From Candidatus Methanogranum gryphiswaldense (GTDB lineage Archaea; Thermoplasmatota; Thermoplasmata; Methanomassiliicoccales; Methanomethylophilaceae): a stretch of DNA of 64,000 bases. The translations under genes were made by a program, and so were the position numbers. Below the pieces are notes generated by a model. The model worked only from the letters and a program-made list of their open reading frames with translations, ran no database searches and was not told the DNA's origin. Location of the stretch: positions 927,093 through 991,092 of the forward strand of contig CP076745.1 in NCBI GenBank assembly GCA_019262145.1. The letters are read 5' to 3'. How positions within the stretch are numbered: the first letter of the stretch is position 1; every line of letters starts with the position of its first letter. Positions 12,634-18,702 of the stretch are shown piece by piece.

Positions 12634-13779
12634 TCATATATTGATTATCTTGGGATTTACGAGTTTACCAATAATGGCGTCGCGGACGTATTTATTATAC
12701 TGACTGAGATCAGGCTTATCCCTTAGTATCTCTTCTGATACATCCATTACATGCCTAAAGACACCTTTGAATATCCTACATGAGTTTCCACCGATATTCT
12801 CGATACCACATTCGTAACAGGCATCTATACTGCACCCACCGTTACAATGGTCGAAGAACTCGCATTCTAATTTGCATTTCTCTCTTCTGGCTATTGTACC
12901 TAACAAGATCTGTCTGAATCCTTCGGTCATGAATACTTCATTTATGTGCTCTATATCCGCGATGTTCGCAAGACGATATTTCTCTGGGCAATTCTTGGCA
13001 CATGGATAGACATCCCCGTTAGGATAGATGCATAGCCATTTTGTGAGACATGAATTATGTGCACAATCTGAGTCAACCGATTCTCCCAATGCATTCAAAA
13101 GATACAGATAATGTGGTATCAGTGGAACATCGGAATCCTTGTCAAAAAGCCATTCATCGAATGCTTTGATACTCTCTGAAATATATTGGTCAGCATCCGG
13201 TATCAAAGATGTATCATCCGCTGCACATCCGGAAGGAATGATCGGAGACAAAGATAGGTTTATGTTCCTGTCTCTAAAGTATCTATAAAGTTCGACCTGT
13301 TTTCCTACTGTCTCGGAAGATATTGTAGAATTCACAGAGAATACGTGCTCTTTCTTAGAAAGATAGACCAGATTCTTATCTACAAGCTCTCCTTTTTGCC
13401 TCAATACACCGTCATAAGGTCCCTCGAAGGATATGCCGATATTAATCTGATTTTCCCTACAGAAATTAGCAAATTTTCTATCGATGAAAGTACCGTTTGT
13501 CTGTATGGTGTTCCCTACTCTGTGAGTGCCCTTGCCAAAATATTTGTTTTGAAATGAAATGACATCCCTATAAAATTGAATGGAGAGCATCATCGGCTCA
13601 CCTCCGTGCCATATGAACCACGCAGACTCATACTCTTCAGAGATCAAACGAAACAACTTGTCCAATGTGCCAGATGATATGCAGCCCGAAACCCTTTCTT
13701 CCTGTCTATGATAGCAATGCCTGCAATCGAGATTGCACGCCATTGTTGGTTTTATTACAACCGAGATGTAAGGGTTCAT
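12634..13779 (-). CDS. Radical SAM/SPASM peptide-modifying enzyme
   Basis: The 381-residue enzyme has the radical SAM cluster motif C15-x3-C19-x2-C22 (ACNLDCRHCYH), the SAM-binding WHGGEP, and a long C-terminal SPASM region: CLTKWLCIYPNGDVYPCAKNC, then CKLECEFFDHCNGGCSIDACYECG, enough cysteines for two auxiliary 4Fe-4S clusters. This matches the anSME-like family, which includes sactipeptide and ranthipeptide maturases. No sulfatase lies nearby. Instead, 30 bases upstream on the same strand is a gene for a small cysteine-rich protein (13810-14106), its probable substrate. Thioether crosslinking of that peptide is inferred, not shown. Confidence 0.92.
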   Translation of the reverse strand: MNPYISVVIKPTMACNLDCRHCYHRQEERVSGCISSGTLDKLFRLISEEYESAWFIWHGGEPMMLSIQFYRDVISFQNKYFGKGTHRVGNTIQTNGTFIDRKFANFCRENQINIGISFEGPYDGVLRQKGELVDKNLVYLSKKEHVFSVNSTISSETVGKQVELYRYFRDRNINLSLSPIIPSGCAADDTSLIPDADQYISESIKAFDEWLFDKDSDVPLIPHYLYLLNALGESVDSDCAHNSCLTKWLCIYPNGDVYPCAKNCPEKYRLANIADIEHINEVFMTEGFRQILLGTIARREKCKLECEFFDHCNGGCSIDACYECGIENIGGNSCRIFKGVFRHVMDVSEEILRDKPDLSQYNKYVRDAIIGKLVNPKIINI

Positions 13780-13809
13780 ATTCGACCGAATGAATATTCC
13801 AGATCAGGA

Positions 13810-14106
13810 TCAGAACGGCCAATATGTCCAAACGCCGTTGAATCCGTGTGTGCAATAACAGCAACATGCACAGCACACTACTGCACCGCCTACTATGGCA
13901 AGATGCCATCCCATGGAATTACAATACCCTTTCTCACTACAGCAACTGTAATCACACGGTTTGTCACCACCGTGTTCAGCAGTATCAACGCGATCGTTAT
14001 GGTCATTAGGGGCTTTCGCGTGCATAGCGATAGATGTGAATGCTGTAGGGGACTGGCTCATGTAAAGCGAGGTCAGTTCCTCAATAGATGAAGAGTTGTT
14101 GGACAT
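13810..14106 (-). CDS. Candidate RiPP precursor: Cys-rich 98-residue protein
   Basis: The product is 98 residues. The first half (leader, about 1-47) is polar, ends in EHGG, and is free of cysteine. The second half holds all ten cysteines at 51, 55, 56, 62, 78, 79, 81, 82, 83 and 85, in two clusters: CDYSCCSEKGYC, then CCACCCYC after the hydrophobic HLAIVGGAVV. It ends with the aromatic GVWTYWPF. ATG 14106 is selected by an AGGTGA site four bases upstream and a TATA box at 14155-14166. The gene is 30 bases before the radical SAM gene. Alternative: a small membrane protein with a cysteine-rich transmembrane end. Confidence 0.7.
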   Translation of the reverse strand: MSNNSSSIEELTSLYMSQSPTAFTSIAMHAKAPNDHNDRVDTAEHGGDKPCDYSCCSEKGYCNSMGWHLAIVGGAVVCCACCCYCTHGFNGVWTYWPF

Positions 14107-14154
14107 GATTTCACCTGACCGACTGGCATCGGTACCTTCCACCGAAATCGATAC

Positions 14155-14166
14155 GAATATATTAAA
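14155..14166. promoter_or_regulatory. Shared TATA box between RiPP-like operon and DUF5685 gene
   Basis: GAATATATTAAA (plus strand) reads as TTTAATATATTC on the minus strand. Its core AATATATT is symmetrical. It lies about 49 bases before the minus-strand precursor start and 35 before the plus-strand start at 14201, so one AT-rich element could serve both divergent transcripts. Confidence 0.55.
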
Positions 14167-14200
14167 GGTTCGAACCATTCCCCAATAAACATCACGAAAT

Positions 14201-15115
14201 ATGTTCGGCTATACGCTCCCTCGCTACGATAAGATGTCCTCTTCCGACCTGGCAATATACCAGAGATATTACTGTGAGACGTGCCATCAACTCAAACAGG
14301 AATTCGGACTCGTTTCTACCGCAACTGTGAACTATGATATGACATTCAACACAATTGTTATCAACTCTATCGCTGGCGACATACTGGATTTTGAAGGAAC
14401 CAAAAGATCACCGTTCTGTGTATTCTCAGATCCTAAGGCCGATTCAGATATGATGAGAAAAATGGCAGCATATACCGTACTCCTGACCAAATGGGAACTT
14501 GTCGATGACGATATAGACAAACCATCTCTGAGAACGGACCTGATCTCGCTAACCCTCGGAAAGGCAATCGCTAAAGCCGAGAAACTGTATCCCGAATACG
14601 ATAGGACCGTCGGAGAAGGATTTGGCAGATTGCATGACCTCGAAAAATCAGAATGCACTAATGCAATTAAAATGGGAAATGTATTCGGAAGGGCACTTTC
14701 AGTTGCTTTGAGTGATTTTGCTGGCGAAAAAACAAACAATACCCTAGAAGATCTGTTTACACAGCTAACCACATTGGTATATGTGCTTGATGCCATAGAT
14801 GACCTGGATGAGGACTATATTGACGAAACTTACAATCCATATCTGACCAATTGTGAAATGTTCATTAACAAAAAGGATTACATCTCAAAGAATGTCTATT
14901 ATTTATCTGATACAGTGAACAGCATCGTTGGTTCCATGCAAAGATCCTACAATGATGTAAAAAAGGACATGCGTGCCTGTACTGGAGTATCTGATAACAT
15001 CATATACTTTGGTTTGCCGGAATCAGCAAAGAATGTACTATCTGGAACAAGCCAAGCGAAAGCAAGTGTGAAGAATGTGCTCAAAGGACACAAGGAACGT
15101 AATGCCTCATATTGA
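14201..15115 (+). CDS. DUF5685 family protein
   Basis: The 304-residue product begins MFGYTLPRYD and has YCETCHQL and NYDMTFN, the N-terminal signature of DUF5685. The central ALDAIDDLDEDYID acidic motif resembles the aspartate-rich motifs of helical prenyl-transferring enzymes, which is only suggestive. The protein appears soluble and helical, with a CxxC that could bind metal. No function is established for the family. It is divergent from the RiPP-like operon and may share its promoter, but nothing shows a functional link. Confidence 0.75.
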   Translation: MFGYTLPRYDKMSSSDLAIYQRYYCETCHQLKQEFGLVSTATVNYDMTFNTIVINSIAGDILDFEGTKRSPFCVFSDPKADSDMMRKMAAYTVLLTKWELVDDDIDKPSLRTDLISLTLGKAIAKAEKLYPEYDRTVGEGFGRLHDLEKSECTNAIKMGNVFGRALSVALSDFAGEKTNNTLEDLFTQLTTLVYVLDAIDDLDEDYIDETYNPYLTNCEMFINKKDYISKNVYYLSDTVNSIVGSMQRSYNDVKKDMRACTGVSDNIIYFGLPESAKNVLSGTSQAKASVKNVLKGHKERNASY

Positions 15116-15361
15116 ACGTCTTCCACATGGGTCATAATCAGTACATACATCTAACGTATCCACGCGGACCCCTTTTCTTGAACATGCCGTCACACCTTGA
15201 TCCACGATTAAACTCCTACAATTCTCACAAGACCCCGGACGATATCTCTCACATGTATTCTCCATTTGGGTCCTTTCATCTCTAATTGTACATAGCCAGA
15301 TCATATCCGAATGTATGCAAAATCTACATGTCTTGCACTTACGGTAATTCTCATTTGTCAT
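15107..15361 (-). CDS. Small cysteine-rich protein, probable metal-binding
   Basis: The 84-residue product contains ten cysteines, beginning KCKTCRFC and later CENC and CGRR, without hydrophobic segments. The spacing suggests two zinc or iron-sulfur sites. I recognise no family. It overlaps the 3' end of the DUF5685 gene by 9 bases on the opposite strand. Because the cysteines sit in pairs in a frame without other disturbance, I think it is a real gene, but the size leaves doubt. Confidence 0.6.
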   Translation of the reverse strand: MTNENYRKCKTCRFCIHSDMIWLCTIRDERTQMENTCERYRPGSCENCRSLIVDQGVTACSRKGVRVDTLDVCTDYDPCGRRSI

Positions 15362-16532: not shown

Positions 16533-17195
16533 TTATATCCTGATGGAACAGTTGGCATAACCCTCACGAATAATACCATATATGACACTGAACGGAATGG
16601 ACGTTTTGACAGCTATGCCTGTACAAGTGTCTCCTTTCTTGTATGCGTCCAAAATCGACTTGACGAGTTGATCATCGTTGACAGATGATGATATCTTTCT
16701 CGATTCTAAAACATCGACCTTCTTGATGTTCTTCTTCTCAATACTCCATGAGGTGGACCTGCATTTAGGACATCTTTTCGGAGGCCAATCTCTCTTAGCC
16801 GTCCATTTATGTGAACATCTAAGGCAGTCGTATGTCCTCGGTGCTTCATTCCAATGGTATGTCCCACAACTTGGACATCTGCGAGGGTCCTCACTTGTAG
16901 ACCCCCATTCATAATTGCATCTTGCACAGGTCTTCAACTCAAAAGGCTTCATCCATATGGTAGACCTGCACGAAGGACAGTTACGGGGTATGCTATCCGT
17001 CTTCCTAGGCTTCCAGTGATAGGAACAACGTGAACACACGTAATATTTCGGTACTAGTATACCATTCCCGCTTTGAGCATTACCCGCCAAGACCTTCTGA
17101 TCCCCTACTACCAGAATATGTATCCAACTTAAAATATTATCCGTATATTCTTCATTGAAAGGACTATGAAATTCCGAATAATCTAATGAAAACAT
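16533..17195 (-). CDS. Triple zinc-ribbon protein with C-terminal HTH-like segment
   Basis: From ATG 17195 the product has about 220 residues. Three consecutive zinc ribbons are clear: CSRCSYHW...CPSC, CARCNYEWG...CPSC and CLRCSHKW...CPKC, each ending in a tryptophan-containing turn. The last 50 residues (AYKKGDTCTGIAVKTSIPFS) look like a helix-turn-helix. The combination suggests nucleic-acid binding, perhaps transcriptional control. It is divergent from the MFS exporter at 17302, leaving about 100 bases of shared upstream DNA, so regulation of that exporter is possible but unproven. Confidence 0.7.
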   Translation of the reverse strand: MFSLDYSEFHSPFNEEYTDNILSWIHILVVGDQKVLAGNAQSGNGILVPKYYVCSRCSYHWKPRKTDSIPRNCPSCRSTIWMKPFELKTCARCNYEWGSTSEDPRRCPSCGTYHWNEAPRTYDCLRCSHKWTAKRDWPPKRCPKCRSTSWSIEKKNIKKVDVLESRKISSSVNDDQLVKSILDAYKKGDTCTGIAVKTSIPFSVIYGIIREGYANCSIRI

Positions 17196-17301
17196 TACGA
17201 CATCCAAAGAAAATTTGTACTCAATAATAACGTCTATTGTCGATACCGAATGCCGCTGTTGGTCGTATAAGTTTGATATATTTGCATTATATTCACGGCC
17301 T

Positions 17302-18702
17302 ATGCACAACGCCTATGGGATAGACAGAAAACATATGCTTATTCTGTTCGTTGTGGCATTTGTATCTTTGGCCGACGGAATGGACGGCAGCATTGCCAAT
17401 ATCGCCCTACCGACCTTGGCCGATGAAATGGGCACAGACACCGGAACAATTTCCTGGGTGACGGTCACATATTATATGATGGTCGCAGGAACCATACTAC
17501 TTTTCGCAAGAATTGCGAGTAACGGTGCCATCAGAAAAATATTGATCCTCGGACTTGTCCTTTTCGCCGCCGGCTCACTTATGTGCGGTCTTTCTCAAAC
17601 CCTACCTGTACTTCTCATTGCAAGAGTTATTCAGGGTACAGGTGCGGCCATGATGGGTGCTGCAGCACCGATGATATGCGTTGAATATCTTCCCAGGAAC
17701 AAACTTGGTCTTGGATTCGGCGTCATAACCCTGGGATGTTCCATAGGGTATGCCACAGGACCCGCTATCGGAGGATTCATAATCGACGCGCTCTCGTGGC
17801 ATTGGACATTCTTTATCAGCGTACCCCTTGCAATAATCGTCATGCCCATAATGCTGATCGCGATACCAAAAGACAGTCCAACAAAAGGAAAACATATTGA
17901 TATCAAAGGCGCCGTGATCTTACTGCTAATGACGTTCTTCGGCATTTATGCTCTGCAGAGATGCTGTTATGAGGGCGAATTCTTGATGTCTATTATCGCA
18001 ACAGTACTTTTCTTTGTACTTTTAATATTATTCGTATTCGTTGAACTTCGGAAAAAGAACCCAATACTGAACGTACGCGTGTTCATGAACAGAGACTTCA
18101 ACTATGTTTTCGTGGCATTCCTCATTATCAATCTGGTGTATATGGGAATGTTATATCTCATACCCTTCTATCTGCAAATAAATCTGGGGCTTTCCGCATC
18201 CCTTAGCGGTGTGTATCTGCTCATTCCATCTATCGTGACCCTCATCTTCGTCATGCCGCTTTCAAGAAAATCAGATTTCATGGGAAGAAGGCTTTTCAGC
18301 ATAATCTCATGTATCTTGCTACTAGTATCATGTTTGATCTGGGTGTTCTTCTCACCATTGAAAATGATAATACCTTTGATAATTGCGTTCGTCTTAATGG
18401 GCCTTACATGGTCCACATGCGGAGGTGCCATGGCCAGCCGTATTGTGGAAAAGACCGAGAATGAAAGCCGTGAGATGGGGTCGTCCCTTATGAACGAGGC
18501 CGTTTACATTGGGTGCGCAGTAGGTACCGCACTTTATGCGATGATATTCATATTCTACACTGGTTCAGGAAACATTGATTTCGCCGATCTTCCTCCTGAC
18601 GTCTTCCTCAAAGGATTCGTATTCACATTGATCGTATCCGCGATACTATGTGCTATTGCCCTCTTCATGTCGACAGTTGTCAAAGATAAGAACGATGCTT
18701 AA
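17302..18702 (+). CDS. MFS exporter, EmrB/QacA-like, 14 helices
   Basis: From ATG 17302 the product is 466 residues with fourteen predicted helices. DGMDGSIANIALPTLADEMG in helix 1 is the classic DHA2 family beginning, and GPAIGGFIIDALSWHW in helix 5 is the antiporter motif. These proteins expel lipophilic compounds using the proton gradient. The ATG follows a GATATATTTGC TATA-like region about 25 bases upstream, so earlier in-frame starts from 17215 are unlikely. It is divergent from the zinc-ribbon gene. Confidence 0.9.
   Translation: MHNAYGIDRKHMLILFVVAFVSLADGMDGSIANIALPTLADEMGTDTGTISWVTVTYYMMVAGTILLFARIASNGAIRKILILGLVLFAAGSLMCGLSQTLPVLLIARVIQGTGAAMMGAAAPMICVEYLPRNKLGLGFGVITLGCSIGYATGPAIGGFIIDALSWHWTFFISVPLAIIVMPIMLIAIPKDSPTKGKHIDIKGAVILLLMTFFGIYALQRCCYEGEFLMSIIATVLFFVLLILFVFVELRKKNPILNVRVFMNRDFNYVFVAFLIINLVYMGMLYLIPFYLQINLGLSASLSGVYLLIPSIVTLIFVMPLSRKSDFMGRRLFSIISCILLLVSCLIWVFFSPLKMIIPLIIAFVLMGLTWSTCGGAMASRIVEKTENESREMGSSLMNEAVYIGCAVGTALYAMIFIFYTGSGNIDFADLPPDVFLKGFVFTLIVSAILCAIALFMSTVVKDKNDA

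Follow-up and report, generated by a model that had tools for sequence, protein, structure and literature searches.

SPASM-type radical SAM enzymes encoded beside a short leader-bearing protein represent the usual arrangement of RiPP systems, and in the SCIFF, sactipeptide and ranthipeptide systems it is a Cys-rich peptide that adjoins such an enzyme. Peptide prenylation is carried out by ComQ and PalQ, peptide prenyltransferases with an isoprenoid-synthase fold (PMC5331326, PMC10853753, PMC13290415). The Trp of ComX is the third or fourth residue from the C-terminus (PMC5331326, PMC10853753), and the members of the ComQ/PalQ type characterised so far all act on Trp and have a Gln ahead of the second motif (PMC13290415).

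The window analysed here, which is the whole stretch of 64,000 nucleotides taken from the Candidatus Methanogranum gryphiswaldense contig CP076745.1, carries a three-gene cassette that is conserved in one methanogen family and that is composed of a Cys-rich peptide, a radical SAM/SPASM enzyme and a DUF5685 protein. The initial annotation had delimited a peptide-enzyme system at 12634–14166; both of these genes are real, but the span misses the third conserved gene, DUF5685. The peptide and enzyme genes are separated by 30 bp and both lie on the minus strand, a detail left unstated at that time, and DUF5685 is divergent from the peptide gene. The features of the locus are the following:

12634–13779, minus strand: radical SAM/SPASM enzyme P0001, 381 aa, with PF04055 and PF13186 above the gathering score
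12778–13050, minus strand: SPASM cysteine region C244...C334, from the enzyme alignment
13714–13737, minus strand: CxxxCxxC motif (CNLDCRHC), present in 26/27 aligned homologues and absent in genome G004
13810–14106, minus strand: ORF of the 98-aa Cys-rich peptide P0002, proposed substrate, with homologues in 40/40 loci
13813–13845, minus strand: aromatic C-terminus GFNGVWTYWPF, with Trp third from the end; W-P-[FYNL] ends 37/37 peptides
13852–13914, minus strand: hydrophobic TM-like helix with CCACCC, from the AlphaFold (AF2) helix 65–85 and Kyte-Doolittle values
13921–13956, minus strand: first Cys block CDYSCCSEKGYC, with the C-x2,3-CC motif found in 37/37 methanogen peptides
14038–14085, minus strand: conserved leader motif IEELTSLYMSQSPTAF, from the peptide alignment
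14107–14200, no strand assigned: divergent promoter region of 94 bp, common to the peptide and DUF5685 genes, whose ACCTTTAATATAT region is conserved in the congeners G001 and G002
14201–15115, plus strand: DUF5685 protein with an isoprenoid-synthase-like fold, proposed prenyltransferase (PF18937, E 1.3e-41; AF2; Foldseek; co-occurrence)
14504–14518, plus strand: first Asp motif D102-x3-D106, both Asp at 100% in 32 archaeal and 79 bacterial DUF5685 sequences
14789–14815, plus strand: second Asp motif D197-x3-D201-x3-D205, 99–100% in the 111 sequences
15107–15361, minus strand: 84-aa CxxC-rich protein, a non-universal accessory whose homologues lie near DUF5685

The peptide was found directly upstream of the enzyme, on the same strand, in 40/40 related loci (L081–L120, stretches of about 6–19.5 kb) from 10 genera of one family, with a gap of 0–52 bp wherever the ORF starts are clear, and therefore the pairing is not due to chance. 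Two of these peptides, those of L084 (G004) and L111 (G044), escaped the ORF search with a single sequence and came to light when the gap was read. Peptide and enzyme were strictly together in all loci fetched, the co-occurrence that the initial annotation had named as the way to check its proposal, and the search for a small gene lacking its radical SAM partner revealed no true case, the nearest being G004, whose enzyme lacks CxxxCxxC. Among 100 related genomes, matches to the peptide with convincing E-values were confined to the family of the window and lay directly ahead of the same enzyme, and a profile search of a 250-genome sample of the class found none outside that family; two weak matches elsewhere (E 0.0014) were discarded as they run through stops. 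The distribution of DUF5685 follows the same line: 45 of the 61 family genomes hold the enzyme and DUF5685, 15 hold neither, and one holds only a DUF5685 fragment, which sits at a contig edge (Fisher p 2e-13, computed without correction for linkage or phylogeny). In three genomes DUF5685 lies away from the peptide, at 3.6 kb in G006, 1.9 kb in G050 and 19 kb in G060, and all three genes are kept in each of them. In fact, peptide, enzyme and DUF5685 were the only near-universal genes across the 10 genera in a neighbour clustering whose 90-aa cut-off hides some peptides, which were tracked separately. The same clustering revealed neither a conserved protease or exporter near the cassette, as had been noted for the window itself, nor a sulfatase among the conserved neighbours. 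The methanogens carrying the cassette are probably gut-associated anaerobes.

The peptide is a genuine 98-aa ORF with ten Cys, as first described, and its C-terminal half runs in the order CDYSCCSEKGYC...CCACCCYC...WTYWPF. An alternative in-frame ATG at 14178 would yield a peptide of 122 aa; the start was placed at 14106 because this is the one kept in relatives. The TATA-like element ACCTTTAATATAT and the ribosome site reported for this gene are both present, and the AT box of the divergent promoter region, at about 14153–14176, is kept in the two congeneric genomes. Across 37 aligned peptides, the invariant residues are Y15, Q18, C51, C55, C56, C82, Y84, W96 and P97. Tyr15 and Gln18 belong to the leader, which is followed by a variable linker; the Gly-Gly that had been taken as the leader's end is not conserved among the 37 peptides, and a C39-type Gly-Gly leader was consequently rejected. 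The Cys core with its glycine/valine hydrophobic stretch was also part of the first description: the Cys core is real, but a probable transmembrane helix had been missed. In the AF2 model (overall pLDDT 59.5) only helix 65–85 reaches fair confidence, with block pLDDT up to 86, and the 19-residue Kyte-Doolittle maxima are 1.6–2.7 with 0–1 charges in all 37 peptides, so the predicted helix is probably membrane-spanning. No family was matched when P0002 was compared with Pfam and NCBIfam models, in agreement with the earlier impression that it is unlike known families. Variants of the ORF occur: in G059 (L119 8828–9415, minus strand) it has no stop after YWPF and continues for ~97 residues over the enzyme gene start, and in genus g7 (L088 9604–10116, plus strand; L104 9198–9857, minus strand) it bears a long Lys/Glu/Ala-rich N-terminal extension.

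The enzyme has the CxxxCxxC motif and the SPASM cysteines that define the radical SAM/SPASM superfamily, as had been claimed, and these are conserved, G004 excepted: C239, C244, C260, C302, C306, C312, C316 and C334 are invariant in 27/27 homologues. The best NCBIfam models were DynA (160.7 bits, cut-off 450), anSME TIGR03942 (146.9, cut-off 349.45) and TIGR04083 (97.8, cut-off 300), and no curated cut-off was reached. P0001 shares with these enzymes the domain layout, a full-length alignment and the SPASM cysteines, whereas it misses their cut-offs at least twofold in bits and has other partner genes. The scores were 45.9 against 425 for the SCIFF maturase TIGR03974, 61.4 against 340 for the ranthipeptide enzyme PapB, and 90.8 against 310 and 81.7 against 425 for the cyclophane maturases GrrM and AmcB; SCIFF, ranthipeptide, anSME and cyclophane assignments, all under the family cut-offs, were thus set aside. 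The closest solved structure is anSME (E 6e-44), followed by SCIFF- and other peptide-maturase structures. In P0001 the radical SAM domain comes first, the best family matches starting at residues 4–10, and there is neither an N-terminal extension nor an RRE leader-recognition domain. An RRE may also exist as a separate protein, and none was conserved near the cassette loci.

The enzyme of G004 (L084 7096–8199, minus strand) has lost CxxxCxxC and has a degenerate GGEP, with the SPASM cysteines intact and the peptide and DUF5685 persisting. Its ORF starts ten bases past the peptide stop and therefore leaves no room for CxxxCxxC; since the peptide and DUF5685 are kept, radical chemistry seems dispensable in this one genome, which is 94% complete. 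By its sequence, this enzyme is apparently a non-radical descendant retained beside its peptide and DUF5685. Elsewhere, the radical SAM homologue of G029 (L104 8013–9178, minus strand) is broken by a frameshift, either true or an assembly error, and G050 (L248 5504–8079, minus strand) has a second, different radical SAM/SPASM-like gene pair, with no Cys-rich peptide visible beside it.

For the third gene, the open-access literature searched yielded one passing mention of DUF5685 and nothing relevant on it, nor anything relevant on Methanomassiliicoccales or Methanomethylophilaceae with radical SAM enzymes or RiPPs. Its AF2 model (pLDDT 88) was compared by Foldseek, and about 46 of the best 50 PDB matches were isoprenoid synthases, with probabilities mostly of 0.8–1.0, including polyprenyl and farnesyl diphosphate, squalene, dehydrosqualene and terpene synthases, MoeN5 and Ord1. 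No PDB fold match fell below E 0.001; the best E-value was 0.028 and the range 0.03–0.5, and so a class I isoprenoid synthase fold is suggested rather than proven. The two Asp motifs sit where two long helices end, an arrangement also found in that fold, and Y24, C25, C28, E148, Y194 and N212 are likewise universal; prenyl transfer does not explain the invariant YCxxC to which the first of these belong. The hhalign comparisons with polyprenyl and squalene synthases gave non-significant E-values of 0.12–0.23, a test in which a known related pair failed too, and the best local match covered the first Asp motif in both comparisons. Searching PDB sequences with DUF5685 retrieved nothing real.

Like ComQ/ComX and PalQ/PalX, the cassette combines an isoprenoid-synthase-type fold, as predicted for DUF5685, and a first Asp motif with a small putative peptide substrate bearing a near-C-terminal Trp; this Trp is the third-last residue of all 37 methanogen peptides, the acceptor placement of the ComQ/PalQ type. 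In contrast, DUF5685 has no detectable sequence homology to ComQ or PalQ, no conserved Gln before its second Asp motif (residues 185–196) and a complete second Asp motif, and the cassette differs in its Cys-rich tails, radical SAM partner and archaeal host.

A parallel was found in bacteria. A scan for clostridial-type DUF5685 retrieved 80 loci, nearly all from Clostridia plus one record labelled Calditrichales. Since three sequences supplied the search patterns, this sample is biased to close relatives. In 79 of the loci the DUF5685 ORF could be located, and 77 had a J-domain/TPR protein alongside, usually overlapping or less than 100 bp away; Pfam DnaJ was confirmed on two of these partners. 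At least 4 Cys are found in the last 45 residues of 76/77 partners, the mean being 7.5 in this tail against 0.33 per 45 residues elsewhere. C-x2,3-CC occurs in 58/76 tails, where 15 would be expected from tail shuffling and 32 from shuffling inside the Cys segment, and Trp of any kind occurs in only 29/76. DUF5685 followed by a J-domain protein with a Cys-rich tail was seen at L122 5001–6508, L123 4965–6570 and L051 1501–3031, which come from Clostridia and from one genome (G082) belonging to another family of the window's order, and one actinobacterial plasmid DUF5685 had no Cys-tailed J-domain neighbour immediately downstream. The clostridial system shares with the cassette the DUF5685 family itself (profile E 5e-36) and a neighbour whose C-terminus is rich in Cys and includes C-x2,3-CC, whereas it has a J-domain/TPR scaffold instead of a short leader, a less hydrophobic tail and no conserved radical SAM gene, a radical-SAM-like ORF having appeared at only about three loci in a crude motif scan. 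As DUF5685 stands beside Cys-rich tails in Bacteria and Archaea, the common factor is the Cys-rich C-terminal tail.

The reading preferred here, with a probability of about 0.38, is that the peptide serves as a substrate with a membrane helix, and that two enzymes would act on its Cys-rich tail: the radical SAM enzyme, and DUF5685 in the role of a prenyltransferase. This substrate would consist of a conserved N-terminal leader followed by the tail, which includes a short membrane-spanning helix and has a Trp-Pro-aromatic end. The SPASM enzyme may alter the tail by radical chemistry, such as a thioether or other C-H crosslink, a step taken solely, by analogy, from the behaviour of the family. 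Judged from the modelled class I isoprenoid synthase fold and both Asp motifs, DUF5685 would most likely attach an isoprenyl group either to a cysteine of the tail or, ComQ-like, to the third-last residue, Trp. Since the Gln is missing from DUF5685 and many clostridial tails contain no Trp, Cys is the more plausible acceptor across the family, with Trp96 as a possibility in methanogens. What results would be a small modified protein anchored in the membrane. What was observed comprises the linkage of the genes, their conservation and motifs, the folds predicted for them and, in Clostridia, a parallel pairing of DUF5685 with Cys-rich tails; from this we infer the peptide's status as substrate, both reactions, the acceptor, the location and any cellular role. 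The peptide gene always neighbours those of a radical SAM enzyme and of DUF5685, whose predicted fold resembles that of terpene or prenyl-chain enzymes, so an unusual modified, perhaps lipid-tagged, protein is predicted as possible. Counted against the full model were the weak Foldseek E-values, the non-significant profile comparison, the missing Gln, YCxxC, G004 and the lack of a RiPP protease or exporter. A broader proposal, doubtful on present evidence, is that DUF5685 is a prenyltransferase family lipidating Cys-rich tails in Bacteria and Archaea, the methanogen tail being also SPASM-crosslinked, and, equally doubtful, that its targets are J-domain proteins in Clostridia and a leader peptide in methanogens. 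Lipidated Cys-string J-domain proteins are known from eukaryotes, and bacteria would make them too if this were true; DUF5685 would gain a testable function, and a single archaeal system would join radical SAM peptide modification to a further one, probably with a lipid.

The SPASM step could also stand without prenylation, the enzyme introducing a thioether or C–C crosslink in a RiPP-like manner and DUF5685 serving as a carrier, chaperone, or metal- or isoprenoid-binder for Cys-rich tails. This account, tentative and on balance somewhat unlikely, draws on the occurrence of DUF5685 next to Cys-rich tails in proteins of two unrelated kinds, on the lack of a sequence-level tie to isoprenoid synthases and on the invariant YCxxC and the linked CxxC protein, which suggest metal or redox handling; however, the retention of five motif aspartates in 111 sequences would be unusual if catalysis were lost. 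It is unlikely that the peptide is left unmodified as a small membrane protein with a structural or metal-binding role, with the SPASM protein as its iron-sulfur partner or cluster loader: about ten Cys, several of them invariant, the TM-like helix and the G004 enzyme, which retains SPASM cysteines without the SAM motif, are compatible with such a role, whereas CxxxCxxC is kept in 26/27 enzyme homologues and an enzyme of this type next to a leader-bearing protein is the layout of a RiPP.

The analysis lends no support to sactipeptide, ranthipeptide or SCIFF labels, the first two of which come from the initial annotation. A bacteriocin system of the sactipeptide, ranthipeptide or SCIFF type, quite improbable here, would account for a SPASM enzyme adjoining a Cys-rich peptide, but the enzyme lies far under the cut-offs (45.9 of 425 bits for the SCIFF maturase, 61.4 of 340 for PapB) and lacks the N-terminal extension that would house a leader-recognition domain, the core is TM-like, DUF5685 is an extra component, and the genes are broadly retained within the family. 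It is highly improbable that P0001 is an anaerobic sulfatase maturase and has the peptide beside it by accident: anSME is its closest solved relative and second-best NCBIfam model, but the score of 146.9 bits stands against a cut-off of 349, the peptide is linked in 40/40 loci, and the conserved neighbours include no sulfatase.

Beside the three-gene cassette, the gene of the 84-aa CxxC-rich protein overlaps the DUF5685 3′ end in convergent orientation, and a homologue was found in 23/40 loci and in 6/7 further stretches; one of the latter is from G060, whose DUF5685 gene is remote from that of the peptide, and the homologue stays with DUF5685 there too. Farther along, a protein with three zinc-ribbon-like CxxC repeats is encoded at 16533–17309 (minus strand), and some related genomes have a relative of it close to the locus.
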